NCBI GenBank assembly: GCA_022828595.1
Contig: JAKGHH010000002.1
Span: 106,947,254 to 107,011,253 of the forward strand
DNA: 64,000 bases
Source of the DNA: Nelumbo lutea
Taxonomy: Eukaryota; Streptophyta; Magnoliopsida; Proteales; Nelumbonaceae
Direction of reading: 5' to 3'
The position numbers were made by a program, and so were the translations under genes. The notes below the pieces were generated by a model. That model searched no databases. It saw only the letters and a program-made list of their open reading frames with translations, and was not told where the DNA came from. Shown one piece after another: positions 3,274 to 30,445 of the stretch. Every line of letters starts with the position of its first letter. Within the stretch, counting starts at the first letter, position 1.

Positions 3274-4995
3274 GTGAAGGAAGGGACTTTGCATTTGGGT
3301 GGAAATATTTATTTACATCATGTGCTTTTTGTACCAAGAATGAACTACACCCTTATTTTTGTAGCTAAATTATTGCAAGAGATAAATTGTACTGTCACTT
3401 TTACTGACAAGTTGTGTGTGATACAGGACTCAACCTTGAGGACTCTGATTGGAGCGGGTGAGCAGTGTGATGGGGTCTATCATTTTAGAGGAGCAACATC
3501 GGTTCAGGCAAATAGAATAAGCGGAATGAGTGAATGAGAGTTGTGGCATCGCAGATTAGGGCATCCGTCTAAACAGATATTATCTTCTCTTCCTAAAGTA
3601 GGTAAATTAAACAGTAGACTTAAAAGAGATAAGCCATGTGATGTTTGTTATAGAGCAAAACAAACTAGGGAAGTTTTTCCTGAAAATAAACATAAAGTTG
3701 ATGATTGTTTTTCTCTAATTCATTGTGATACATGGGGTGCTTATAAAGTACCTGCCTCTTGTGGTGTCATTTACTTTCTAACCATTGTTGATGATTATTC
3801 CCGTGTTGTGTGGGTTTACCTGTTACTTGAAAAAAGTGAAGTAGCACATATTGTTGAGAATTTTTGTTCCATGGCAGAACTCCAATTTGGCAAGCAAGTC
3901 AGAACTGTTCGAAGTGATAATGGAACAAAGTTTAAAAGCCTGAAATCATACTTCGAGACTCATGGCATTCTGCATCAAACTTCCTGTGTTGGAACACCCC
4001 AATAGAATGGTCGAGTGGAGAGAAAACATAGGTATATTTTGAATGTTGCGAGAGCATTGAGGTTTCAAGCAGGTTTGCCTGTTCGTTTTTGGGGGGAGTG
4101 TGTCTTGACCGCCGGATACTTAATAAATAGGACACCTTCTTCCGTACTTGGCGGGAGGACTCTGTATGAGATACTGTTCGGGACAACACCTCAATACGAG
4201 CAAATAATAGTGTTTGGTTGTCTCTGCTATGCTCATTGGAGTCCTCGAGATAAGGATAAGTTTGGAGCGAGGAGTAGGAAGTGTGTTTTTGTAGGCTATC
4301 CCTACGAAAAGAAAGGTTGGCGTGTATATGATGTTGAGAGCGGTAAATATTTCATCTCCCGTGATGTAGTCTTCCATGAAAATGTATTTCCATATGCCGG
4401 TGATTTAGAAGTAACTTTTGAAGACAACCCCCAGGCAATTGCGGCCGTAGTTGATGATGATGTTTTTCATAGCCATAGAGGAAATAAAGCCAGGGGAAGT
4501 GACGAAGACAATATTTATGCGAATGATAGGGAAAGCTTTCAAAATACTAATAAGAGAGAGGAGGAGCAAGGCAATGGAGGGGGTGTGCAAGAAGTGGAAG
4601 TTAATGGCGGAGAGGACGGAATTAGTGTGGATCCAGCACCACAAACAACACCAGAAGAGCAACTTGGCAGGGGACATCGACATCGCATGCCATCTGTTTT
4701 ATTAAAGCCTTATGTAACCTACATTGATCAATGTTTGAAAGACCCCATTCACACTCAAGCCAACTCTGAGTCAAAGTCCTCAGGTACGACTCCCTATCCC
4801 ATAATAAATTATGTGAAATGTACTAACTTCTTTGCTAGACATCAAGCTTTCTTAGCTGTAGTTACTACAGGAGCCAAGCCTATCAGTTTTTCTGAGGCAG
4901 TAAAAAGTGAGAAATGGAGAGAAGATATGAGGAAGGAAATCCAGGCTCTGGAGGATAATGGTACATGGACATTGAGAAACCTACCTCCCGGATAA
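3274..4995 (+). pseudogene. Copia-1 protease end, integrase and start of RT, broken
   Basis: The fragments at 3274-3537, 3541-4005 and 4015-4995 read on in one direction but are separated by stops. Visible blocks are the pre-integrase WHRRLGHPS, the zinc-binding end CDVCYRAKQ, the integrase core CDTWGAYKVP and FLTIVDDYSRVVWVYLL with catalytic Asp positions, RSDNGTKF, and the RT-proximal EAVKSEKWREDMRKEIQAL. An in-frame stop falls near the conserved TPQQNG site (about 4003), and another stop at 4993 ends this part. Confidence 0.9.
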
Positions 4996-6660: not shown

Positions 6661-8300
6661 AAGGCCTATTGGATTGACTAATGTCACCTATAAAATTGTA
6701 ATTAAAATCATTGCCATTTGCCTCCAGAAGTATATAGGCTCTCTCATCACTCCCTTCCAGAATGCCTTCACCCCTGGAAGGCAGCTCTATGACAATAGGA
6801 TCATAGCTTCAAAGGTTCTGCACTTCTCCCCCAGTTTTGCTCTCTTATCAAAGCCTGTATATCCACAACATTATACTCAATTCTAGTGAATGGGGAGTCT
6901 GAAATACCTTTCCAACCTAAGAGAGGGTTGCGGCAAGACTACCCCCTCTCTCCATATTTATTTATGCTATACATGGACCTGCTGTCTAGATTGCTAACTC
7001 GTCAGATGGATTCTAATTCTCTCTATGGAATCAGGCTAGCCTAGAACTATCCGAAAATTAATCATATATGTTTTTCGACGACATATTGATTTTAGGTAAG
7101 AGTTCAGATCAGGAATTGAAATTCTCACAGTTAAAAATTCTTTGATGCATTTTTGTAGGTGTTGGGACCAGGAAATCAACTTTTCAAAATCTTCTATTTA
7201 CTTATGCAATAATACCTTTTGAGGAGAAGTTCCCATGAAATCCACCCTCACAGCCATTTACTTTTCCATTAATACCTTTCAAAACCTGCTATTTACTTAT
7301 GCAATAATCTCTTTCGGAGAGAAGTTCTCATTGTATTGTGGATAAATACAAAAATAAACTTCAATCGTGGAAAGCCAATTGCCTATAACACGTTGGACGG
7401 GAAGTTATCATTAAATCCACACTCACAGCCAATTTCACATCTCCGCCCCACAACGCCCCATAGCACATCTCCCTCATGTATTGGGAAAATCTCTCAGTGA
7501 TGACATCATGGGGAGTGGTACTATCATTGGGAGATGTTCCCCATACACGGCCAAGATGTGTTATGGGGCATTATGGGGCAATTCCTTGTGGGGCGAAGTT
7601 TACATCTACCTTCAGGCTTGGCAAAACTTCTAGCTACGAAGGAGATGGGTGTATTAGGAATTCATGATGTTTCCACTAAAAACAAAGTGATTATCATGAA
7701 ATTATCTTGGAGATTCCTCAAAGAACAAAACAGGCTCTAAGCACAACTCTTGTACCAAAAATATTTGGGCACACAAAATTCTTTTTGGAATATTAAAAGG
7801 AGGAATTCAGATTCTATCATCTGGCGAAGCATGTTGGAAGTCACAAATGAACTGATTAAGGATACTAGATGGATCATTGCTAATGGCTGGCAAGTTAATA
7901 TACATGCAGACCCATGGATTCCGAATCTTATCATCAGCCAAGATTTGAACCAGTCAAATCTGAAAGTTGCATCTTTGATAAACCATACTACTAGCAGTTG
8001 GAACGCAGATCTTATCCACTCAATGTTTGATGAGGCGACTGCAAATTAAGTGTATTTTGTCTATTGAATCGAAGGTTGTTCTCACCCTGTTGAACTCTCA
8101 GTCTGAGGTTCCTTGGCGAATTCACTCAACTATAGCCGATTGCAGGGTGCTTCTATGCCTTATTCCTCAAGCCTCAGTGTCTTTCACTCCCGCCTGGAGG
8201 CAATAAAGTTGCACACACAATAAAGCATGGTTCAAAGTGTGGATACATCTCTGCGTACAGGCAGAGGCGTATTGGTACTTAGATTTACATAGAATTATCT
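6661..8300 (+). pseudogene. L1-like LINE RT and C-terminal part (3' side of copia-1), unit A
   Basis: Continues the LINE interrupted at 1136. RPIGLTNVTYKIV and ITPFQNAFTPGRQLYDNRII are classic L1 RT blocks. A degraded KRGLRQ..PLSPYLF block follows near 6915-6965. The frame at 7750-8049 (YLGTQNSFWN, WRSMLEVTNEL, WQVNIHADPWIP) is the C-terminal domain found after RT in plant L1 elements. Part of the region near 7190-7330 is internally duplicated. From about 7249 on it is repeated in unit B at 15225. Confidence 0.85.
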
Positions 8301-8571
8301 TTTTTAGTTTCTTTTTTTTTAACTTTGGTTTTTTGGGAGTTAAAAAAGGATTTTTTTATTAAAAAAGGGTGGGATCCTGAAACAGGTGTTTCAGAACCCA
8401 AAAGATATGATACGATATGCCTGATATGGGGCATATTGTATTGATTTTTTGAACCTTGCTTGTAAGGTTTCTAGACCACTTACCTAGTGTTCTCCTCCTG
8501 AATTCTTGTTGCCTGTACTCAACCTTGATTTATTACATAATTGAAGCCTACGGACCCCTTTTTCAAAAAAG
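8300..8571. other. LINE 3' tail and AT-rich spacer, unit A
   Basis: T-rich and A-rich runs near 8300-8370 may be the tail of the LINE. No gene is visible. The counterpart in unit B is about 16180-16450. Confidence 0.4.
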
Positions 8572-9276
8572 AAGCTCTAATTAAAAGGTTAACTTTTTAA
8601 AAATAATATATTTAAAGAGTAATATATTTAACTTTTGGGGTTTAATATCAATAAAAATAATATATTTAAAAAAAATTCAAAATTATGTTTTTTTAAAAAC
8701 AATATCAACAAAGGGCAAAAACACTGTTCATTTTCTTCTTCTTGCCATTTGTTCACTAGAACCGTCGTTCGCTGCCGCCCACCACAACCCACCACCTCTG
8801 TCCGTTGTCGCCCACCGCCGCCTCTGGCAACGTTGCTGGAGGTGGCCAAAGGCAGAGGTGGCGGTGCCGGTGCTGGTGGTCATTCCTCTGCCCGCCACCA
8901 CCGCCACCTCTATCTCCACCCATCTCTGGCAACATCGTCGGAGGCAAAGGCGGAGGTGAGCGGAGGTGGCGACATTGGACAGAGAAATCACCAACGCCAC
9001 CATCGCCACCTCCAACAACGTTGCCAGAGGCGGAGGCAGAGGTGGGCGGAGGCAGCGGACAACGGTGGCGGGCGGCGATGAGTGGTGGCAGACGGCCGCT
9101 CTGGTGAACAAATAGAAAGAAGAAGATGGTGAATAGTGTTTTTGCCCTTTATTGATATTATTTTCAAAAAGTTAACCTATTTTTAAAATTTTTTTAAATA
9201 TATTACTTCTATTCATATTAAACCCCAAAAGTTGCCCTTATATACTATTATCCCAAAAAAAAAAGCTCTAATTAAA
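8572..9276. mobile_element. Foldback element with long inverted arms and GC-rich core, copy A
   Basis: Left arm features (acttttggggtttaatat near 8631, gggcaaaaacactgttcat near 8713, ccatttgttca near 8746) reappear inverted at the right (tgaacaaat near 9103, gtttttgccc near 9138, attaaaccccaaaagt near 9217). The core (8760-9105) is a low-complexity mix of CCACC/CCGCC on one side and GGTGG/GGCGG on the other, and is open in several frames without resembling a protein. A 14-bp direct repeat, aagctctaattaaa, flanks it at about 8572 and 9263. A Mutator-like non-autonomous element is possible but unproven. Confidence 0.65.
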
Positions 9277-9815
9277 GCCTATCCGTTAGACTTAAATGTA
9301 TACATGTAGTAAAAGTGACATATTTTAAATTTAAGACCATAAATGAGAATACAAGCAATAGAATAATCCAATACTTATCTACAATTTACCCTAAAATAAA
9401 TCTTCATTAAAGAAAAATTCAAACATGTAGAATAAGCAAAGGAAGGGAACCATAATACTAATTTACTTGTCTGCATGCAAAGTTTGAATAGTCCAATACT
9501 TCTAAACCACGAGTTCAATGTCCGTATTCATGACGAGCCGAGTATTGATTCTAGTCTTGCGATTCAGCTTGGATACTTAATCTAACCCAATTAATTTGCT
9601 AGAAAGGCTTGACTTGAGCTGAATAGATTAATTAATCATCCAACTAAAGATATATAAAAAAGTGGGTCAATATCTAAACAATTACAGAATAATTAAGTAT
9701 ATATGGGAAAGTATACCGACAAGTTAAACGACGAATTAACCATTATTTTATCTCCCTTCATTAACCATATTGCACTCTAAACTATGATTATATTCTCTTT
9801 CTTGAAGTGTATATT
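9277..9815. other. AT-rich spacer upstream of lipoxygenase fragment A
   Basis: No gene is visible. It is matched closely by unit B sequence on both sides of copia-2 (17059-17130 and 22160-22610), which makes it the empty-site reference for that insertion. Confidence 0.5.
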
Positions 9816-9817
9816 TT

Positions 9818-10084
9818 TCAAAGCTTAATTTGCGGAATTCCTTCAAATTTGAGATCGCCACTCTGAACTGTTAAGTGCAAAAACTCGTCCTTGTCAGGAT
9901 TTGCAGGAGGTAGCCATGTGAAGCATGTGGGAATTGGAACACAACCATCCAACTGTAAGACTTGAGACCCGCCGGTAAATGTCATTGTTTTAAATGTAGA
10001 GACCATCCCGGAAATTGACCAGAAAGCTGCCGGTGAATGGTTGGAAACCATCCTTTTGTTTGCAACTGTGCAACAGGCCTGTGA
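9818..10084 (-). CDS. Possible terminal exon of an unrecognised gene, copy A
   Basis: A minus-strand frame ends with GIPQIKL and a stop at 9818, and includes FTGGSQVLQLDGCVPI and FTWLPPANPDKDEF. The composition is protein-like and the frame is kept open in unit B (22612-22845) with only two visible substitutions in 77 residues. A plausible splice acceptor (tgcacag) lies just upstream on the minus strand, near 10066-10072. I do not recognise the family. No upstream exon was found, so it is at best a gene fragment, or chance coding potential preserved because the duplication is young. Confidence 0.3.
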   Translation of the reverse strand, partial: SQACCTVANKRMVSNHSPAAFWSISGMVSTFKTMTFTGGSQVLQLDGCVPIPTCFTWLPPANPDKDEFLHLTVQSGDLKFEGIPQIKL

Positions 10085-10486
10085 GAATGCAAATCACAGT
10101 TGCAACATGTTTTAAATTACATGTTTTTTTATTTGATAGAAACAATTTATTTCTGAAACTCCCAATCATGACAACAAATTACACTGAAGAACACCCCCAA
10201 AAATGTCCAATGTGTTGAGTATTCAAGGCTATCATCATAGGACCCATCCAATGGTGGGTCCAGATCCTCTTTGTATTGACAAGTGCCAACAGGTAAATCT
10301 CTTCATTATTGCTCTGATTAGGAGGGAACCCTCACTTCTAACCACTGTTCTTAAGAAATATTTAAACAACTCGAACCAGTCAGCTTAATTAAGAACAGCT
10401 CTTCACCAATTCTACATTAATTTCTGCTTACGTGCAACGACGACGTAATACCAAAAAGCTAAGTCAACCTCTTTCACGACTTCGTC

Positions 10487-10493
10487 TATAAAG
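10487..10493 (+). promoter_or_regulatory. Putative TATA box of lipoxygenase copy A
   Basis: TATAAAG lies about 80 bp upstream of the ATG at 10572, a normal spacing for a plant core promoter. The same box in unit B is at 23262-23268, directly against the copia-3 insertion. Confidence 0.55.
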
Positions 10494-10571
10494 GGAACCA
10501 ACAACTTAGCTTTATGCACAATGGGAGGGAGCTCAAAGGAAAGGAGTCGTAATTAAATAGCAAGAGAAGCC

Positions 10572-10716
10572 ATGGCATCTTCTAGTGACATTAGAGCAGT
10601 AGTAGCGAATACAAAGGAGAAGTTTGTCACAGTTAATGCAGTTGTCACCGTTAAAGAAACAACTGGTTTGTTGTCCAACCTGGGTCTGGGCAAAGTGGCA
10701 TTCACCATCAACTATT
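10572..10716 (+). pseudogene. Lipoxygenase exon 1 fragment, copy A
   Basis: Starts at an ATG in good context (gaagccatggca). It reads MASSSDIRAVVANTKEKFV and continues with NAVVTVKETTG and LSNLGLGKVAFTINY, matching exon 1 of the complete copy at 28010. It keeps six residues (NAVVTV) that copy B has lost; these agree with the usual 13-lipoxygenase N-terminal PLAT region. The reading stops at 10716, where sequence switches to a truncated gypsy LTR at a shared ACTATT. Nothing downstream of this exon remains in unit A. No plastid transit peptide precedes this start. Confidence 0.8.
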
Positions 10717-10862
10717 CTGAGTTAATAGAGAACACAGAATTTCTTTATTCACTTCTCTCTCTTCCAAGGCATATGCCTAGTTACCACAGGCTTCACGACG
10801 AAGTCTTGTGTTCGTCCGGTGCTTGCATAGCCAGCCCGGTTTATGGCTTCCACGCTGCGTCA
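10711..10862 (+). repeat. Gypsy 5' LTR, truncated
   Basis: About 151 bp matching the last part of the 3' LTR (15074-15224), ending gctgcgtca. I count six substitutions and one indel between the two. The first roughly 270 bp of the LTR are missing. The break lies inside lipoxygenase exon 1 at the shared ACTATT. Confidence 0.88.
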
Positions 10863-10864
10863 GG

Positions 10865-10877
10865 TGGTATCAGAGCA
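10865..10877 (+). promoter_or_regulatory. Gypsy primer-binding site
   Basis: tggtatcagagca, two bases after the LTR end, complementary to the 3' end of initiator tRNA-Met. This is the usual primer for plant LTR retrotransposons. Confidence 0.8.
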
Positions 10878-10894
10878 GGGAATTCGCCCAGTCA

Positions 10895-11786
10895 GATGGC
10901 CAACCAAGACGGTAGCAGTCGCAACCCACCCCGTGACGGAGATCAGGGGTTACAAGCTGTTTGGTGAGCGATTGAAGAACAGTGCACAGCCAGACATAAC
11001 ATCGAACAGCAGTTGGCAGAAATCGCTGGACAACTGCGAACCTTGTTACGGGAGGATGTTCCACGGAACCGGGAGAATCCGTATCCAGTTGAAGGAGATG
11101 ATCACGACAGACCTGTATCCCAGCATCCAGTCCTTGACGATGACAGTAATGATGAGCTAGAGTTCGGTGGTGCTCCAGTTTTTCCCGGCGATGACAGAAA
11201 CGGTAGAAATTGACACAATCAAGGTAATTTCAATCCCCGTCGGAATCATGATGAATTTAAACTCAAAGTAGATATTCCTACTTTTAGTGGGGAAGATGAA
11301 GAATGTTTATACGAGCATGAGGAATATACATGTGTTGTGAGGAAATTAATGTTGTCCCAAAGAAATATAGATACCTCTCAACGACACAAATTGTTCGGTA
11401 CTAGATGTACTGTCAAGGGTAAATTATTCGATTTAATTATTGATAGTGGCAATCAAGAAAATATTATTTATAGGGATGTAATACAAAAGTTACAACTACT
11501 TCCTAAAAAACATCCAAACCCATACACAATTGGGTGGATCAAGGAAGAAGGCGGTGTACGGGTAGAGGAACGCTGCAAAGTACATTTTTCAATTGGTAAG
11601 TACCATGATGAAGTATATTGTGATATTGTTGATATGGATGCTTGCCATATTTTGTTAGGGAGTCCTTGGCAATTTGATACAGATGCAAGGCATATGGGTA
11701 GGAAGAATACCTACCAACTGGAAAAAGAGGGTACGCGTTATACTTTGTTACCCATAGCCGATTACAAATGCTCCAAAAGCACATGA
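10895..11786 (+). pseudogene. Gypsy gag-protease remnant with large gag deletion
   Basis: Gag begins at the ATG at 10895 and has one early stop. It continues through a charged region to FKLKVDIPTFSGEDEE (about 11257), the start of the capsid domain. The capsid core and zinc knuckle are missing: the sequence jumps to EEYTCVVRKLMLSQRN, which lies just before protease in this lineage. Protease follows (11380-11760): TVKGKLFDLIIDSGNQENII has the DSG active-site motif, and NPYTIGWIKEEGG and CDIVDMDACHILLGSPWQ are highly typical of plant Ty3/gypsy. A stop at 11784 ends the frame. Confidence 0.88.
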
Positions 11787-11877
11787 GAAAAATTTCCTTA
11801 CCATCACCCATCATCATGCTGAATTTATAAAAGAATGTAAGGATACCCACGATGTACATTTATGGAAGGGAGAAAAT

Positions 11878-12030
11878 ATGAATGAAACACTGGAGGAGAA
11901 TAAAATTCTAGTTGAAGTACAGGGACCAATTGATGAATTCCATGACTTAGTTCCAGATAAGTTACCAAATGAACTCCCACCTATGCAAGATATACAGCAC
12001 CACATTGATTTTGTTCCTGCTGCTAGAATC
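11878..12030 (+). pseudogene. Gypsy pol N-terminal piece before the captured block
   Basis: Residues 1-50 of the 661-residue frame at 11878-13863. DEFHDLVPDKLPNELPPM and DIQHHIDFVPAA match the linker just before gypsy RT, where the family goes on into a segment such as LPNLPHYRM. Here the sequence departs after VPAA, marking the left junction of the captured host sequence. The frame stays open across the junction. Confidence 0.85.
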
Positions 12031-12054
12031 GTAATTTTGTACGATGCATCACTT

Positions 12055-12165
12055 GCATCGTCGCCGGGGTCTGACAACCGAAAACGGCAGGTTGGGAAAG
12101 CTGTCAACCGAGAGTCAGTGCCGCGTAAGTCAATCGATACATTTGGACAACGAACATCTCAATTC
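12055..12165 (+). pseudogene. Captured AINTEGUMENTA-like (AP2/ERF) fragment
   Basis: Residues about 60-96 of the chimeric frame. KRQVGKAVNRESVPRKSIDT and FGQRTSQF are the sequence at and before the first AP2 repeat in AINTEGUMENTA-like/PLETHORA transcription factors, where the family continues YRGVTRHRWTGRYEAHLW. The homology stops at FHGV, before the DNA-binding residues, close to where these genes usually have an intron. The fragment cannot bind DNA as an AP2 domain. The family assignment rests on this motif alone. Confidence 0.7.
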
Positions 12166-12204
12166 CATGGTGTTGCAGGCTTTATCGCCCACGTCCGTCA
12201 TCAT

Positions 12205-12395
12205 CCCTCTCCTTCCTCGGGGAATCAGTTAGATGCATCAACCACAGAAGCCACCGGGTACTCTAATTTGAGCGGTGATTCATTTGGATACTGTAGGACC
12301 AATTCTGGAACTTCAGCTTTCTCAGAACCCACCGATGACAACAGTTGTTCTGACGAGCATTCTACTTTGGGCTGGCCAATCGCCAAATCTGTCGC
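12205..12395 (+). pseudogene. Captured Ser-rich host fragment, possibly ROP-GEF N-terminus
   Basis: Residues about 110-172 of the chimeric frame, with GYSNLSGDSFGYCRTNSGTS, FSEPTDDNSCSDE and LGWPIAKS. This acidic/Ser-rich style ending in GWP resembles the variable N-terminal region of plant ROP guanine-nucleotide exchange factors. No PRONE catalytic domain is present. The assignment is tentative. It clearly differs from both the gypsy sequence on its left and the subtilase on its right. Confidence 0.35.
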
Positions 12396-12483
12396 TAGGC
12401 ATGACGTTGGCATCACGATTTTGGTAGAGACGAAGCAACCCATCAAAGTTGTTGACAAGAAATCCGATGTTCATGAGGTTTCA

Positions 12484-13895
12484 GACTCGTACCCGGATTC
12501 AGATTCTGTGATTAGAGCCAACCACGAGATGCTTTCTTCAGTGATTGGCAGTATTGACGGAGCACAACAGGCAGTAATTCACCATTATACCAAGAGCTTC
12601 AGGGGTTTCTCTGCCATGCTCACGCCAGAACAATTAAAGAAACTTTCTGAGATTGAATCAGTTGTTTCCGTCTTCGAGAGCCAGACATATTATCTTCAGA
12701 CCACGCATTCTTGGGAATTCTTGGGAGTCGATTCTATTCACCAATACAACCAAATGCCCGTTGACGTGAAGTCGGATATTATCATTGGTGTCATTGACAG
12801 TGGAATTTGGCCTGAATCAGAGAGCTTCAATGATAGAGGCTTAGGACCTGTGCCCAAGAGATTTATGGGAGAATGTGTCACTGGTAATCATTTTACATTG
12901 GCAAACTGTAACGGTAAAGTTGTAGGTGCTCGGTATTACTGGAAAGGATTTGAGGCAGAATATGGGCCTCTTGAATCTTTAAATTCTACTTTCTTCCGAT
13001 CAGATCGGGATGAGAATGGGCATGGCACCCACACCGCATCCATAGTGGTTGGATCCATGGTGAGAAATGCCAGTTTGTATGGAATTGTCGGAGGTGTTGC
13101 GAGGGGAGGTGCGCCTAGCGCTAGGCTTGCCGTCTACAAGGTTTGCTGGGGGACCTTGAGGCTATGTTCCGAAGCTGACATCCTTTCAGCCTTTGATGAT
13201 TCCATCAATGATGGCGTCGATATAATCTCCATCTCACTTGCCAGGATCCCTTTCGTTAGCTACTCTGGTGATGCCAACTCCATTGGAGCTTTCCATGCAT
13301 TCAGGAAAGGAATTCTGGTCTCAGCCGTAGCTAGAAATCTTTTCTTCCCTGGAACAGTGGAAAATGCCACGCCTTGGATTCTCACTGTCGCTGCGAGCTC
13401 TGTGGATCAAGAATTCATCTCCGATGTTCATCTTGGTAACTCAAAAATTCTCAAGAGTTACTCGTTAAACCCATTTAAGATGGATGGGTTTTATGGTGTG
13501 ATAAACGCGAGTGATGCAGCTGCTCCCGATGTTCCTTCTACCAATGCTAGCCTCTGTGAGGAGGAGAGTCTTGACCACACGTTGATTAAGGGAAATATAG
13601 TGGTGTGCGTGCGTAATAGCACAAGAATAGATATATCAGGGGAAACCATACGACGGGGCGGTGGTGTCGGGATGATACTCGCCTATCCATTTCCCAAGGG
13701 AGGACTCAGACAATTCGAAATCCCAGGCATTCAAATTAATGTTAAACAATCACAAGTACTTCAATCATATCTGGCTACGGATAGAAAACCAATTGCCGAA
13801 ATCTCTCCAACAAAAACGGTTCCGCCTTCTCAAAGGGCCCAAACTTACTTGCACCTAGCATAACAAAACCCGATATTGCAGCACCAGGGGTCAAT
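12484..13895 (+). pseudogene. Captured subtilase (SBT3-like) fragment, no introns, no catalytic Ser
   Basis: Secreted plant serine protease fragment. Order: inhibitor I9 propeptide (HHYTKSFRGFSAMLTPEQLK), S8 domain with Asp in GVIDSGIWPE (residue 307, base 12796), His in NGHGTHTAS (residue 382), oxyanion Asn in VSAVARN (residue 487; usually SAGN), then the PA-like insert (RRGGGVGMILAYP). A frameshift near 13828 moves the last part ([16 protein letters not shown]) into the next frame. It ends before the GTSMSCPH segment, so the catalytic Ser is absent and it cannot be an active protease. The signal peptide is also missing. Plant subtilases of this type have many introns; none is seen, which implies a spliced mRNA source. 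Confidence 0.88.
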
Positions 13896-13934
13896 ATATT
13901 GGCAGGGTCATTTCGGAGGGTTATTCAGCGGAAG

Positions 13935-14573
13935 TACAACCTGAAGAACCCAGCGGTGAAGAGGATCCTTCAGGAGGTGAAGGAAATACGAGCAACCCCT
14001 TCCGATGATTTCATGAGCCTTCCTCTCGAGGAAAATATATTTGAGTGGCAATTTGTGATCAGAGGTCCCCGTGACACAGAGTTCAAGGGAGGAATCTATC
14101 ACGGACGGATCCAATTGCCAGCAGAATATCCATTCCAACAACCTGCATTTATGCTGTTAACTCCTAATGGTCGTTTTGAAACGCACACGAAGATTTGTTT
14201 AAGCATATTCAATCATCACCCAGAGCATTGGCAGCCATCTTGTAGCGTGAGAACTGGTTTGGTAGCATTGATTGCATTCATGCCCACCAACCCAGATGGT
14301 GCATTGGGCTCATTGGATTACAAGAAGGAAGAAGGACGTGCATTAGCCATCAAATCTCGTGAAGCAGCCCCCAGATTTGGAACTCCAGAACGTCAGAAAT
14401 TGATTGATGAGATTCACCAATGTATGTTAAGCAAGGCACCACCAATTCCGCAATTAAATGCCCCACGGGCCTCGAATGAAGAAGAATCAACCGAGAAAGA
14501 AGCAGAGGTTAACCCGCAAAATTCTGGTGCGGTAGTTGCAGTCGAGGGGGGTCATCCAAACCCAGAAGGTGAT
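13935..14573 (+). pseudogene. Captured UBC32-type ubiquitin-conjugating enzyme (E2) fragment, fused to gypsy integrase
   Basis: E2 domain of the ER-anchored UBC32/33/34 group, which acts in ER-associated degradation. The frame at 13899-14870 has [17 protein letters not shown] at the start of the fold, [49 protein letters not shown] with the catalytic Cys (TGT at 14196-14198), [10 protein letters not shown] and [20 protein letters not shown]. The UBC fold is nearly complete and free of stops and introns. The C-terminal membrane anchor is missing: at NPEGDE the frame passes into gypsy integrase. The Trp usual after WQPS is Cys here. Upstream it is fused to the subtilase end. Expression is unknown. 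Confidence 0.87.
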
Positions 14574-14870
14574 GAAATCATGGTGTTTTTAAGGAAGGAA
14601 CGCATATCCGTGGGGAAGTATAACCAGCTACAGCCTCGGCAATACGGCCCATACAAGATCCTCAAGAAGATCAATGACAATGCTTACGTAGTGGACTTGT
14701 CAGATCACATAGGTATTTCCAAAGCATTTAATCTTGTTGATCTTCATCGTTATTTGCATATCCCGATCATGACTCGGGGTCGAGTTCTTTTCAAGTGGGG
14801 GAGAATGATGGAGGACCATCTCACCAACCGGCAACAGCTCACGTCTCTCACGTCTAGAGACCTTATGTGA
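14574..14870 (+). pseudogene. Gypsy integrase C-terminal (GPY) remnant
   Basis: [20 protein letters not shown] then [19 protein letters not shown] is the C-terminal integrase module of plant Ty3/gypsy elements, with the GPY motif. It is in frame with the E2 and ends at TGA 14868-14870, inside the 3' LTR. The integrase zinc finger and DDE core are absent. Confidence 0.85.
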
Positions 14871-15224
14871 TCCAACAACCATAGGATAAACCACAGGATA
14901 ATGGTGACAGCTCCATGCATTGATAAACATTGGAAGATGGTGGCTATTGGACGGTGGATATCAAAGGCAGATTTCAAAGATGTCTAGAAGTCCAGTTCCT
15001 AGTTGTTTTAGTTGTTTTACAATTTTAACTTTCCTAGTTACTCTATAAGTCTATCAGATGTATTATAAATACTACTATTCTGAGTTAATAGAGAACACAG
15101 AATTTCTTTATTCACTTCTCTCTCTTCCAAGCATACGCCTAGTTACCACAGGCTTCACGACGAAGCCTTGTGTTCGTCCGATGCTTACATAGCCAGCCCG
15201 GTTTATTGCTTCCATGCTGCGTCA
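14806..15224 (+). repeat. Gypsy 3' LTR
   Basis: About 419 bp starting TGATGG after the purine tract aagtgggggagaa (14793-14805) and ending GCGTCA. The start is inferred from the purine tract because the 5' LTR lacks this end. LINE unit B begins directly after it. Confidence 0.75.
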
Positions 15225-16180
15225 CAGCCATTTACTTTTGCATTAATACCTTTCAAAACCTGCTGTTTACTTATGCAATAATACCTTTCGGAGAGAAGTT
15301 CTCATTTTATTGTAGATAAATATAAAAATAAACTTCAATCGTGGAAAGCCAATTGCCTATAACACGTTAGACGGAAAGTTCTCATTAAATTCACACTCAC
15401 AGCCAAGTTCACATCTCCGCCCCACATGGAGCCACCCACAACGCCCCACAGCACATTCCCACCATGTATTGGGAAAATCTCTCGATGATTACATCTACCT
15501 TCAGGCTTGGCAAAACATCTAGCTAAGAAGGAGATGGGTGTATTAGGAATTCATGATGTTTCCACTAAAAACAAAGTGCTTATCATGAAATTATCTTGGA
15601 GATTCCTCAAAGAACAAAACAGGCTCTAGGCACAACTTTGTACCAAAAATATTTGGGCACACAAAATTCTTTTTGGAATATTAAAAGGAGGAATTCAGAT
15701 TCTATCATCTGGCGAAGCATGTTGGAAGTCACAAATGAACTGATTAAGGCTACTAGATGGATCATTGCTAATGGCTGGCAAGTTAATATACATGCAGACC
15801 CATGGATTCCGAATCTTATCATCAGCCAAGATTTGAACCAGTCAAATCTGAAAGTTGCATCTCTGATAAACCATACTACTAGCAGTTGGAACGCAGATCT
15901 TATCCACTCAATGTTTGATGAGGCGACTGCAAATTAAGTGTATTTTGTCTATTGAATCGAAGGTTGTTCTCACCCTGTTGAACTCAGTCTAAGGTTCCTT
16001 GGCGAATTCACTCAACTATAGCCGATTACAGGGTCCTTCTATGCCTTATTCCTCAAGCCTCAGTATCTTTCACTTCCGCGTGGAGGCAATAAAGTTTCAC
16101 ACACAACAAAGCATGGTTCAAAGTGTGGATACATCTCTGCGTATAGGCAGAGGCGTATCGGTACTTAGATTCACATAGAA
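15225..16180 (+). pseudogene. L1-like LINE C-terminal part, unit B
   Basis: Repeat of 7249-8300. The 15641-15937 frame differs from its partner at 7750-8049 by a single residue in the shared 99 (Asp to Ala). It begins abruptly at the gypsy 3' LTR end, in the middle of the LINE. Like unit A it is not coding-competent. Confidence 0.85.
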
Positions 16181-16439
16181 TTATCTTTTTTTTAGTTTTT
16201 TTTTCAAACTTTGGTTTTTGGGGAGTTAAAAAAGGATTTTTTTATTAAAAAAGGGTGGGATCCTGGTGTTTCAGAACTCAAAAGATACGATACGATATGC
16301 CTGATATGGGGTATATTGTATCGATTTTTTGAACCTTGCTTGTAAGGTTTCTAGACCACTTACCTGGTGTTCTCCTCCTGAATTCTTGTTGCCTGTACTC
16401 AACCTAGATTTATTACATAATTGAAGCCTACTAACCCCT

Positions 16440-17058
16440 TTTTCAAAAAAAAAAATCTTTAATTAAAAGGTTAACTTTTAAAAATAATATATTTATCTTT
16501 TGGGGTTTAATATCAATAAAAGTAATATACTTTAAAAATAATAAAAAGTAGGTTAACTTTTTAAAAAGAATATCAATATAGGGCAAAAACACTGTTTATC
16601 TTTTTCTTCTTGCCATTTGTTCACCAGAACCGTCGTCCGTCGCCGCCACCGCCACCGTTGTCTGCTGTCGCCCGCCACCACCGCCACCTCTGTCTCCACC
16701 CATCTCCGGCAACGTTGTCGGAGGCGGAGGTGGAGGTGGCGGCATTGGACAATAGAAATCACCAACGCCGTTGCCACCACCTCTGCCTCCGGCCACCTCC
16801 GACAACGTTGTCGGAGGCGGAGGCAAAGGTGGGCGGAGGCAGCGGACAGCGGTGGCGGGTGGTGGCGGACGGCGATGGGCGGCGGCAGACGGCTACTTTG
16901 GTGAACAAATAGCAACAAGAAGAAGATGAACAGTGTTTTTTCCATTTGTTGATATTATTTTTAAAAAGTTAACCTATTTTTGAATTTTTTTTTAAATATA
17001 AATCCCAAAAATTGCCCTTATACTCTATTACGCCCCCCAAAAAGAGCTCTAATTAAAG
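16440..17058. mobile_element. Foldback element with GC-rich core, copy B
   Basis: Second copy of the element at 8572-9276, with the same inverted arms (ttttggggtttaatat at 16500, gggcaaaaacactgttt at 16580, and inverted counterparts at 16905-17010). The GC-rich core (16625-16905) differs from copy A by several in/dels and is shorter. Inherited through the tandem duplication rather than by a new insertion. Confidence 0.6.
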
Positions 17059-17130
17059 CCTATCCGTTAGACATAAATGATAGTAAAAGTGACATATTTG
17101 AAAGTTAAGACCATAAAGTGAGAATACATG

Positions 17131-17631
17131 TGTTGAAAAGTAAAAAAAAAAGGTGGGCTAGTCGGTGGCTCACCGAATTTACAATCGGTGGCCCACCGAA
17201 CTGAGCCCACCATATTGAACGATTTGTTCGGTGGCACACCATTTTTGTTGTTTACTTAACATTGAAGAAAATTATTAAAAACCCCATTATACCCCTCAGC
17301 TCAAGTATAAATAGGGGTCCCCCCTATGTATTTGAAAATATATTCCATTTCATTTCAGTGTATAGTATATGCAATGTGTTGAGAGGAGTATTGTGTTTGT
17401 GTGTATTGAGTGTCGGGTACGGGTGTGATTTTGGTGAGGTCATCTTTGTATTTTCTCCTGTTTATAGTAAGAAAAGGAAACTCTGAACTGTTGCCCGTGG
17501 ACGTAGGCATTTTGACCGAATCACGTAAATCTAGTGTTCTCTCTTTCTTTTTCTTTCTCTATTGCTATCTGCTTTTTATTTTCTTTTTGTGCACGTACAG
17601 ATTACATTATTTCCGCTGTGCAATTCCAACA
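17131..17631 (+). repeat. Copia-2 5' LTR
   Basis: Has a TATA box (tataaata, 17306-17313). Upstream, in U3, the motif cggtgg-cNcaccg occurs three times (17163-17243), each an imperfect palindrome. The primer-binding site starts two bases after the LTR end. Confidence 0.92.
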
Positions 17632-17712
17632 ATTGGTATCAGAGCCACACGGTTCTGTTCTGGGATTCTGCCGAAATCTGTATTTGCTGTTCCGATATTG
17701 CACGTGTTGAAT

Positions 17713-21672: not shown

Positions 21673-22159
21673 TGTTGAAAAGTAAAAAAAAAAGTGGGTC
21701 AGTCGGTGGCTCACCGAATTTACAATCAGTGGCTCACCGAGCTGAGCCCACCATATTGAACAGTGGCACACCATTTTTGTTGTTTACTTAATGTTGAAGA
21801 AAATTATTAAAAAACCCCATTATACCCCTCAGCTCAAGTATAAATAGGGGTCCCCCTATGTATTTGAAAATATATTCCATTTCATTTTAGTGTAGTGTAT
21901 GTAGTGTGTTGAGAGGAGTATTGTGTTTGGGTGTATTGTGTCGGGTACGGGTGTGATTTCGGTGAGGTCATCTTTGTATTTTCTCCTGTTTATAGTAAGA
22001 AAATGAAGCTCAGAGCTACTGCCCGTGGACGTAAGCATTTTGGCCAAACCACGTAAATCTGGTGTTCTCTCTTTCTTTTTCTTTCTCTATTGCTATTTGC
22101 TTTTTATTTTCTTTCCGTGCACATACAAATTACATTATTTCCGCTGTACAATTCCAACA
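21673..22159 (+). repeat. Copia-2 3' LTR
   Basis: Matches the 5' LTR with scattered substitutions and small deletions, one of which removes part of the third palindromic U3 motif near 21760. TATA box at 21839-21846. Confidence 0.92.
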
Positions 22160-22611
22160 ACATGCAATAGAATAATCCAATACTTATCTACAATTTACCC
22201 TAAAATAAATCTCCATTAAAGAAAAATTCAAACATGTGGAATAAGCAAAGGAAGGGATCCATAATATTAATTTACTTGTATGCATGCAAAGTTTGAATAG
22301 TCCAATACTTCTAAACCACGAGTTCAATGTCTTTATTCATGACGAGCCGAGTATTAACTCTAGTCTTGCGATTCAGCTTGGATACTTAATCTAACCCAAT
22401 TAATTTGCTAGAAAGGCTTGACTTGAGCTGAATATATTAATTAATCATCCAACTAAAGATATATAAAAAAGTGGGTCAATATCTAAACAATTACAGAATA
22501 ATTAAGTATATATGGGAAAGTATACCGACAAGTTAAACGACGAATTAACCATTATTTTATCTCCCTTCATTAACCATATTGCACTCTAAACTATGATTAT
22601 ATTCTCTTTTT

Positions 22612-22863
22612 TCAAAGCTTAATTTGCGGAATTCCTTCAAATTTGAGATCGCCACTCTGAACTGTTAAGTGCAAAAACTTGTCCTTGTCAGGATTTGCAG
22701 GAGGTAGCCATGTGAAGCATGTGGGAATTGGAACACAACCATCCAACTGTAAGACTTGAGACCCGCCGGTAAATGTCATTGTTTTAAATGTAGAGACCAT
22801 CCCGGAAATTGACCAGAAAGCTCCCGGTGAATGGTTGGAAACCATCCTTTTGTTTGCAACTGT
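22612..22863 (-). CDS. Possible terminal exon of an unrecognised gene, copy B
   Basis: Partner of 9818-10084. It differs at two residues (Ala to Gly near the start, Glu to Lys in the DKDEF segment) and keeps the same stop. Family unknown. Retention of the frame may only reflect the youth of the duplication. Confidence 0.28.
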   Translation of the reverse strand, partial: TVANKRMVSNHSPGAFWSISGMVSTFKTMTFTGGSQVLQLDGCVPIPTCFTWLPPANPDKDKFLHLTVQSGDLKFEGIPQIKL

Positions 22864-23261
22864 GCAACAGGCCTGTGAGAATGCAAATCACAGTTGCAAC
22901 ATGTTTTAAATTCCATGTTTTTTATTTGATAGAAACAATTTATTTCTGAAACTCCCAATCATGACAACAAATTACACTGAAGAACTCCCCAAAAATGTCC
23001 AATGTGTTGAGTATTCAAGGCTATCATCATAGGACCCATCCAATGGTGGGTCCAGATCCTCTTTGTATTGACAAGTGCCAACAGGTAAATCTCTTCATTA
23101 TTGCTCTGATTAAGTGGGAACCCTCACTTCTAACCACTATTCTTAATAAATATTTAAACAACTCGAACCAGTCAGCTTAATTAAGAACACATTAATTTCT
23201 GCTTACGTGCAACGACGACGTAATACCAAAAAGCTAGATCAACCTCTTTCACGACTTCGTC

Positions 23262-23268
23262 TATAAAG
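23262..23268 (+). promoter_or_regulatory. Putative TATA box of lipoxygenase copy B, cut off by copia-3
   Basis: Identical to the TATAAAG at 10487 in unit A. Copia-3 begins at 23271, only two bases on. The box is now about 4.7 kb from the ATG at 28010. Confidence 0.6.
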
Positions 23269-23270
23269 GG

Positions 23271-27811: not shown

Positions 27812-27928
27812 TATTAGAAGACCAAACTGGTACCTTACAAAAGTTAGTTACGATTAGCCAAGATTAATTACAAGTTTTCTTTTCTTCAAATCAATAAAGA
27901 GCATTATCTCTCTCTACAAATTCTAATA
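27812..27928 (+). repeat. Copia-3 3' LTR, internally deleted
   Basis: Matches both ends of the 5' LTR but lacks about 100 bp in the middle, including the second duplication unit and the TATA box. Confidence 0.9.
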
Positions 27929-30445
27929 AAGGGAACCAACAACTTAGCTTTATGCACAATGGGAGGGAGCTCAAAGGAAAGGAGTCGTAATTAAAAAGCA
28001 AGAGAAGCCATGGCATCTTCTAGTCACATTGGAGCAGTAGTAGCAAATACCAAGGAGAAGTTTGTCACCGTTAAAGAAACAACTGGTTTGTTGTCCAACC
28101 TGGGTCTGGGCAAAGTGGCATTCACCATCAACTATTTTCTGGATGAAAATCTTCTTCTGGAGCTTGTGAGCGCGGAGCTCGATCCAAGTAAGTAATAACA
28201 AAAAATAAATGAGAATTATTTCTGCACCAAACCTTAGCATTCTGCTTTGGAGGTTTATGAGCCATAAATGCATTAGCTTCCCAAAACGAAAAAGCTAATT
28301 ACAGAAGTCAAAATATCATTTAAAATGGAAAGCTGAGTCAAGTCTATCAGATCTCACTAATCCAGTTTCCAGAAAAACTTTCTGGTTTCTGGGTTTCTGC
28401 ATTCGTAGTGTTTCCACCAGTTGTAGTAGTAAAGGGTGGCCTTAATTAGCTCACTGGTTTCTGGGTTTCAATCAAAGGGCATTAAGTTCTTGCTAACAGT
28501 TGTTTGTTTTGGTTATGTATTATGTTTTGATGATGAAGAGACGGTATTGGAGAAGAAAACAGTGAGAGGGCATGTAGACTGGGTAAGCCAAGATGGGGAG
28601 GATGTCAAGTACCAAGGCAAATTCGACGTTCCTACGAGTTTTGGCGATGTAGGAGCAGTTGTTGTGCAGAATGAATTTGGTAAAGAGATTTTCCTGAAGG
28701 ACGTTGTTCTTGGTGGCATTTCTCAGGCTCCTGTTCATATTGTCTGCAACTCTTGGATATGAAGGACCTTAGATGTAATGCAGCTGTGCATCGGAAAAAA
28801 CTTTCAAGTACGGAGATGTTTTCAATGAATGGTTGAAACTTAAAGGGCAATGGGCAATGAAGACAGTTTTTGAGGATCAAATCTGAAAAACAATTACTAT
28901 ACTACATCATTGTGATATTGCAAGTTGACCCGTTGAGCCCAGACTGGGTCAACTCATATACAAGCAATTTTTTTTTGTTAAGCTCAATTTGGAAGGAGTA
29001 CAAACACAAATATGCCCAGACGGCGTTTGTTAAGCTCAACTGTATATATTTGTATTTTTACTCCTTCCAAACTGAGCCTTAAAAATAATATAACAGGGTT
29101 GGGGTTAGAGTTTCTAGCCTCGGGATGGGCTTAGAGCTTGGAAAATGGGATCTGATCCAAGTCTAATTGAGATTGGTTTTGCCCATTATGGGATCGAGCC
29201 TCAAATTTGATGACAAAGAGCCCAAGACTTAAGGTTCGGCCTTGAATTAGCCATAAACTCCACCATATTAAAGGATGATCAAAGAATTCATTAGTCTTCC
29301 AGTTCAATGAGCCATTCAGCTGGTTTTAGTTTGATTTGGTTCACTGTTTGAACCGAACCATTAACTGACATGGTGTTTGGAAGTATGGGTGATTTTGGGG
29401 ACCAATTTTCAAGAAAAAATATCTGTGCTTCCAGGACCCATTTTTCACAAAAAAATACTTCTGCCATGTAGGCAGTGAGTAATACTATGCTGTTTGGTAA
29501 GGTGACTTTCATAACTGTTTTTCATACATGTGCTAACAGGTAAGCACCACATAGAATACACATCAATCAACCATTGAGATTCCAATTTTCGAGGCATGTC
29601 CGATTTTTTAATAATCGGCTGAACCAAAGAATGAAATACATGGGCATTTATTGAAATGCCTATTGAATCCAACGTGACACCATTTTTTTGAAAAACCGTC
29701 TCTGTTCCAAACATCCCCTGAATTGGTCCAGTCTTCGTAGGATGAATTGAAAAGGAGTGTTTAATCAGTTTTTCATATTCTCACATTTTTTCAAATTGTT
29801 AAACACTTTCTAATTTTGGTTCTTTTGTGTCATCCAGTCCTACTTGCCATCACAGACACCAAGTGGCTTGAAGACACTAAGACAGAAGGAACTCGAGAGC
29901 CTACGTGGCAATGGAAAGGGAGAACGAAAGACTTTCGACAGGATATACGATTATGACACGTATAATGATCTTGGGGATCCAGACAGGGACGATGACTTTG
30001 GCACGACCCATCCTAGGTGGCAAGAAGCATCCATATCCTAGGCGTTGCAGAACTGACCGTGAAAAGATCAAGAAAGGTATATGAATTATGGCTTTACCAT
30101 TCAACGTTACACGGTCCAATTCCATAGATCTTAAAACCCAAAATGGGCTCCAACCCAATATGGTCCACCAGTCCAGTCCAGCCTTATTTCTTTTCGACGC
30201 AAATCAATCAACTTATATAACAAATTTGTTGAGCTTATTTAGCCGAAAAGAAAGGTTTATTGGGCCTTCATTTTCAGGCTCTGAGAGACTGAGAAGACTG
30301 AGATGGGCCTTCATTTTCAGTTTCAGAGTTTTAGTATCTAGGACCAGCCAGGCACAATTGATTGTCCCATGGATTTGCCTACTCCAGGCTTAGTAGGAGT
30401 GATCATTTCTCCCTAATTCAAAAATTTTCTGGCTTCGGTAATTAA

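Follow-up and report, generated by a model that had tools for sequence, protein, structure and literature searches.

Nested pieces of four host genes in a non-autonomous gypsy element of Nelumbo lutea

A Ty3/gypsy long terminal repeat (LTR) retrotransposon in the genome of the lotus Nelumbo lutea carries pieces of four host genes, some of them nested inside others. We analyzed a stretch of 64,000 nucleotides (the window; contig JAKGHH010000002.1 of assembly GCA_022828595.1, positions 106,947,254 to 107,011,253 of the forward strand), in which the element occupies positions 10711-15224, with all of its parts on the + strand. It had originally been predicted, from the sequence, as a gypsy element whose reverse transcriptase (RT), RNase H and integrase core was replaced by host gene fragments. 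We found that the element is a real and mobile, non-autonomous retrotransposon, that its subtilase and UBC32 sequence derives from spliced mRNA of donor loci that we identified, and that the gypsy core was very probably replaced by reverse-transcribed mRNA of four host genes (AIL1, RopGEF, subtilase and UBC32) via template switching.

A mobile gypsy element with pieces of four donor genes

The donors of the host block lie at four separate places in the genome. We searched the source assembly (843.7 Mb, 63 contigs) with the 2544-bp block at 12030-14573 and obtained 76 matches, with 37 of 37 candidates scored. The donors were a subtilase gene (L011, at C6:58.27M) and a UBC32 gene (L012, at C3:109.96M), both split into separate exons, a RopGEF gene (L013, at C1:38.93M) and an AIL1 gene (L014, at C6:67.89M); weaker matches look like paralogues. 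Aligned pairwise, the window and the four donors shared 18 stretches of 86.5-100% identity. The separate donor places rule out that the host pieces adjoin as ordinary genomic DNA. The alignment contained no target duplication and no poly(A) at the inner joints, and the pieces are internal mRNA fragments. The original prediction had named two findings that would speak against it, pieces lying together with introns at an ordinary locus and separate insertions with their own target duplications, and we saw neither.

The captured parts of the subtilase and UBC32 have lost all 12 introns that the donors contain there. We ran the intron test on one of two further copies of the block (L009; see below), with the best-fitting border selected by a script. 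The subtilase stretch lacks eight of eight introns with GT...AG borders (0-2 mismatches per 24 nt across the joint) and the UBC32 stretch lacks four of four, also with GT...AG borders (0 or 1 mismatches per 24 nt). The exon-exon junctions expected in the original prediction are thus present in the captured sequence of both genes.

The block contains six pieces of the four genes. It begins with an AIL1 (AINTEGUMENTA-like) piece at 12051-12176, in its native frame and 96.8% identical to the donor, followed by 23 bp of the UBC32 5' untranslated region (UTR) at 12177-12199 (L012 2800-2823) and a piece of RopGEF exon 1 at 12200-12488, also in its native frame (96.2% identity). A subtilase (SBT5.3-like) mRNA piece at 12489-13905 comes next, then a second RopGEF piece at 13906-13933 (SFRRVIQRK; L013 3953-3984, 96.9%) and the UBC32 (E2) coding piece at 13934-14575. 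Profile matches in the block identified the subtilase (PF00082, E 1.3e-14) with its inhibitor I9 domain (PF05922, E 1.4e-12) and the ubiquitin-conjugating E2 domain (PF00179, E 2.2e-17). The original prediction was right about the AINTEGUMENTA-like, subtilase and UBC32-type pieces and about three or four genes in a non-autonomous element; its Ser-rich piece is there and is the RopGEF N-terminus. It overlooked the short UBC32 5'UTR piece, the second RopGEF stretch and the nested order.

The block is held in a gypsy frame. Direct repeats at 10711-10862 and 15074-15224 (95.4% identical) bracket the gypsy and host sequence. The left repeat is the last 152 bp of an LTR of about 419 bp, and the complete 3' LTR (419 bp, TGATGG...CGTCA) lies at 14806-15224. 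The primer binding site region at 10863-10880 (GGTGGTATCAGAGCAGGG) is identical in both other copies and resembles a site for initiator tRNA-Met. It is followed by an N-terminal part of gag with in-frame stops (10896-11293), from which about 0.8 kb is gone at about 11290 relative to aligned related elements, and by the protease and first RT residues (11288-12047), the RT start being identified by alignment with related elements. The protease-like match (PF13975, 11403-11663) scored 20.2 bits, under the curated cut-off of 28.2. Downstream from the block are a gypsy integrase C-terminus with a Tf2-1-like SH3 domain (14576-14793; PF24626, E 1.3e-14; relatives L032 and L033) and the polypurine tract AGTGGGGGAGAA (14794-14805). 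As predicted, the element lacks RNase H, most of integrase and all of RT beyond the initial residues. The predicted gypsy flanks are present, with the qualifications that the 5' LTR is a remnant, that gag is incomplete, and that the joint of the gag-protease-RT start is probably secondary and is missing from the other two copies.

The chimera moved as a unit, which is well supported by three dispersed copies with common inner joints. The genome-wide search proposed in the original prediction returned two places besides the window (which is on C2) at which block positions 22 to 2538 or 2544 recur, C7:29.64M and C3:113.40M, each at 94% identity. The three cassettes are 95.5-96.9% alike. Both other copies (L009 and L010) have paired LTRs, with 5' LTRs that terminate in TTA rather than TCA. 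In all three copies the space between the mapped parts is too small for an RT, RNase H and integrase core of their own, and we therefore class the element as non-autonomous. Gypsy relatives are present in the genome, with RVT_1 in L048 and the integrase SH3 domain in L044.

Two of the copies have target site duplications (TSDs). L010 is flanked by a perfect 5-bp TSD (TTCCT/TTCCT). L009 has AAAAA on its left and AAGAA on its right; its insertion is also present as a segmental duplicate 288 kb away (L046, itself shortened; flank 98.0% identical over 639 bp), and because this duplicate carries AAGAA on its left side, we read the TSD of L009 as AAGAA. Together with the donor loci elsewhere, the lost introns and the microhomology at the joints, the TSDs bear out the predicted capture of host mRNA. 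The L009 insertion (L009 2569-3209, L046 42-656) adjoins a coding stretch that resembles DUF4220 (PF13968, E 2.1e-19 in L046) and has a duplicate at the same distance of 288 kb.

By identity, the captured pieces were closest to proteins of Nelumbo nucifera. The highest identities were 93% (AIL1), 90% (subtilase, P0003) and 84% (UBC32, P0138), with other plants (Tetracentron, Liquidambar, Camellia) in the top rows by E-value. Among the 120 matches listed of 2721 (7991 candidates scored), no public protein spanned the cassette; Nelumbo matches covered at most 64%, and any match at most 69%, of the 701-residue open reading frame (ORF) of the window. Two Nelumbo proteins resemble the L010 copy. 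P0146 (200 residues, 'UBC core') equals L010 over residues 1-181 and then continues into integrase sequence, and P0003 (385 residues, 'Peptidase S8/S53') is closest to L010, with a match that crosses a frame change. Both look like gene predictions from that copy (L010 4900-6053 and 6244-6844).

Nested joints and the path of reverse transcription

The host pieces are nested, and two outer mRNAs are used twice. UBC32 encloses RopGEF, RopGEF encloses the subtilase, and AIL1 lies outside, adjoining gypsy sequence (L010 retains 636 bp of it). The UBC32 sequence runs to L012 2823 and restarts at 2885, skipping 61 nt that include the start codon at 2871, and RopGEF likewise runs to L013 3053 and restarts at 3956. 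Read in the direction of minus-strand synthesis, each outer mRNA is abandoned and then taken up again further upstream (for UBC32, from L012 2885 to 2823).

The joints have more microhomology than expected by chance. From AIL1 to integrase, the exact matches at the six joints are TGTTAC (the final six nt of the AIL1 piece), none, ACTC (the end of the first RopGEF piece), CAG, GGAAGAGAA and GGTGATGA (the end of the UBC32 coding piece), or 6, 0, 4, 3, 9 and 8 nt with a sum of 30, so that five of the six measured joints have 3-9 nt. Of 20000 sets of breakpoints placed at random in these donors, none reached this sum (mean 4.1, maximum 18). We left the gypsy-to-AIL1 joint of L010 out of the microhomology and frame counts because relatives diverge there and it cannot be placed exactly. 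The excess of microhomology fits the prediction of out-and-back template switching.

These observations are best explained by the following path. Gypsy RT would copy element RNA inside a particle that also holds host mRNAs. The growing minus strand would leave its template at short matches, copy a stretch of host mRNA and return to an earlier template further upstream, running from the integrase end to UBC32, RopGEF, the subtilase, RopGEF again, the UBC32 5'UTR, AIL1 and gypsy again. The finished chimera would retain the LTRs, primer binding site and polypurine tract, and enzymes of relatives may have moved it in trans to the three places seen.

Microhomology is also typical of end joining, and the window copy underwent DNA-level joining at its 5' end, where the LTR meets a lipoxygenase-like exon at ACTATT. 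A patchwork made at the DNA level, built from processed pseudogenes or host cDNA by insertion of one into another or by repair after they had integrated, independently of template switching in the cycle of the element, is nevertheless very unlikely. The pieces lack the poly(A) and target duplications of such insertions, each nested insert costs the outer template a stretch, and the same inner joints occur in three dispersed copies, two of them with TSDs.

Template switching itself could have proceeded in one round or in several, and we slightly favor successive rounds. In a single burst, RT would hop over the element RNA and four co-packaged mRNAs in one round of reverse transcription, with last-in first-out returns; this is a sub-case of the capture by template switching described above, so its odds overlap with those of capture as a whole, and we consider it possible, at somewhat less than even chances. 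Last-in first-out nesting is expected if the strand keeps returning to a template that is still tethered, the pieces diverge similarly from their donors, and the assembly matches include no intermediates. A single burst requires that one particle contain four host mRNAs and that RT switch seven times, and no datum in the present analysis separates it from stepwise capture.

Several observations weigh against capture by template switching, or against its successive form. The AIL1 and RopGEF pieces each lie within one exon and are therefore uninformative on splicing, so that the original claim of intronless pieces stands for the subtilase and UBC32. The joint between the UBC32 5'UTR and RopGEF is the one with no exact microhomology. 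The window copy shows no TSD of its own to read, because most of its 5' LTR was lost. An intermediate with fewer captures was not found among the assembly matches; a stepwise history would allow one and would not require it. Successive rounds predict that outer pieces are older, and the divergence between the donors and the shared state of the copies gives no such order (0.8% for AIL1, 1.4% for RopGEF, 2.4% for the subtilase, 3.0% or one change for the second RopGEF piece, and 1.4% for UBC32; 49 changes in total). Finally, the Kimura two-parameter distances (K2P) within the LTR pairs of L009 (0.075) and L010 (0.079) exceed those between the cassettes of different copies (0.032-0.047), which is not predicted by plain retrotransposition at one rate.

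The LTR changes are concentrated in the 5' LTRs. With the remaining copies used for polarization, the 5' LTR accounted for 22 of the 28 changes in L009 (6 in the 3' LTR) and for 22 of the 30 in L010 (8 in the 3' LTR), and C>T and G>A predominated; the short part in the window had 3 versus 3 (K2P 0.041 over 151 bp). The excess of private changes lies at L009 3210-3800 and L010 2972-3380. L046 and the 3' LTR of L009 are 96.2% identical, and the two LTRs of L009 are 92.9% identical. We derived no insertion ages, because divergence within the LTR pairs is similar to or greater than that between the cassettes and the 5' LTR of L009 is unusually mutated.

A second element in the genome carries UBC32 sequence. 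It is a Copia element (RVT_2) with a spliced UBC32 copy antisense to pol, near one LTR (L015 5439-6098, L016 and, in part, L017); the assembly search placed its UBC32 stretches at C1 and C8. The chimera and the Copia copies L015 and L016 share the absence of one A of the 5'UTR of the gene, as would be expected if the chimera had taken its UBC32 part from Copia and not from the gene. Considering positions that are uniform within the three chimeras and within the three Copia copies, we found 27 sites that unite the chimera with the gene, 3 that unite the chimera with Copia and 2 that unite the gene with Copia, and the Copia copies lack 30 nt that are present in both gene and chimera. Based on 27 versus 3 informative sites we rejected a Copia origin, the least probable of the alternatives, and we read the Copia copy as a probably independent, older capture.

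Reading frames and later changes

Native frames continue across the joints that could be assessed. The AIL1-RopGEF, RopGEF-subtilase, subtilase-RopGEF and RopGEF-UBC32 transitions are in frame in all three copies, and UBC32-integrase is in frame in two of three, L010 having a private insertion. The copy-specific joints, gag to AIL1 in L009 and pol to AIL1 in the window, are also in frame. This makes seven of seven assessable joints; at one chance in three each, it would occur about once in 2200, a figure computed after seeing the data. Within coding pieces, the indels that set all three copies apart from the donors measure 3 and 6 nt. By manual reading of the alignment, 8 of 12 private indels are not multiples of three, and the window copy has a private 31-nt deletion near 13820 that shifts the frame of the subtilase piece.

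Substitutions in the captured sequence look neutral. Private changes were nonsynonymous in 105 of 136 cases (0.772, versus 0.715 expected; standard deviation 0.037), and changes between donors and copies in 34 of 49 (0.694, versus 0.697 expected). We saw no constraint and rejected selection on the amino-acid sequence; the frame, if it mattered, did not matter for the amino acids. It is a tentative and rather doubtful idea that the element kept one long frame while mobile (gag or pol, then AIL1-RopGEF-subtilase-RopGEF-UBC32 and the integrase tail), with translation of the whole RNA needed for movement, for example in escape from nonsense-mediated decay or in packaging, and with out-of-frame captures lost. 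If so, LTR elements would act as a filter that produces in-frame multi-gene fusions.

The window copy appears to be a recombinant. We searched the assembly with the LTR-gag-protease-RT start and obtained at least 80 matches including the window, with the best 40 of 748 candidates scored. With blastn, positions 11186-12050 matched nothing in either of the other cassette copies, L009 and L010. The sequence matches relatives, and as far as 12047 it matches two related deletion derivatives (L023/L034 and L030/L035), and we therefore read the gag-protease-RT start as probably acquired secondarily, from such a derivative. The match includes about 20 bp after the RT start, unmatched by L032 and L033, that are common to the window and these derivatives.

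Most of the 5' LTR of the window copy was probably also lost after the chimera had formed, in the join of the LTR with an exon 1 that, from its protein sequence, we take to be lipoxygenase-like. The join is at a 6-nt match (ACTATT), and the counterpart exon is at about 28010-28190. The LTR is fused to a lipoxygenase-like segment (10488-10716) that comprises an upstream region, the start codon and exon 1, and an ORF at 10557-10967 reads in frame from the exon through the LTR into the start of gag. The element sits within a region of interleaved duplications (7248-28136) that pairs 7594-9353 with 15483-17128, 9351-10495 with 22160-23270 (95%), 17131-17632 with 21673-22160, and 10488-10716 with 27926-28136.

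Comparison with known captures

The element works like known retro-capture; its nesting, its returns to earlier templates and its kept frames are unexpected to a specialist. It illustrates a way in which LTR elements can bring several genes together as one. With four donors, the joints and three copies in one assembly, the path of RT is readable almost base by base, including the returns. This makes two questions testable: whether captures form a single burst or a series of rounds, and whether selection by mobility itself yields in-frame fusions, a route to multi-domain proteins. In the listed titles and abstract beginnings of the open-access literature, with subscription papers mostly outside this scope, neither this Nelumbo element nor any LTR element with a nested capture of several genes was described.

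The comparisons that follow rest on the available parts of the cited papers. In the model of LTR-mediated retroposition of Tan et al. 2016 (as given in PMC5408686), an mRNA becomes joined into an LTR element when the template is switched between the two RNAs at microsimilarities, and repeated switching is possible in theory; the lotus element differs in showing several switches with out-and-back nesting in one element. Double template jumps of long interspersed nuclear elements (LINEs) yield tripartite chimeric retrogenes (PMC2104539), in which three transcripts are likewise fused by switches during reverse transcription. These use LINE machinery, have no LTRs and are described as fusions rather than nested returns. 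For complex LTR elements of Triticeae, an origin by abnormal template switching has also been proposed (PMC1950507), there between element RNAs and not with host mRNAs.

Multi-gene capture by plant LTR elements appears rare in the literature covered. LTR elements of maize, rice and sorghum also hold host genes or gene fragments (PMC2774510, PMC3726574), and a maize survey of 425 elements with at least 189 captures reported, under its conditions, no element that combined fragments of two or more standard nuclear genes (PMC2774510). The statement in the original prediction that capture usually involves a single gene agrees with this survey, but maize Bs1 already holds segments of three host genes, a plasma membrane ATPase, a xylan endohydrolase and a beta-1,3-glucanase (PMC13317346). 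Bs1, the cited three-gene case, is the nearest precedent that we found: both are LTR elements that carry several host genes and have chimeric coding potential. The lotus element, known from its DNA alone, differs from Bs1 in host, genes and element, and in that its pieces come from four genes, are nested, and record returns to the same mRNA.

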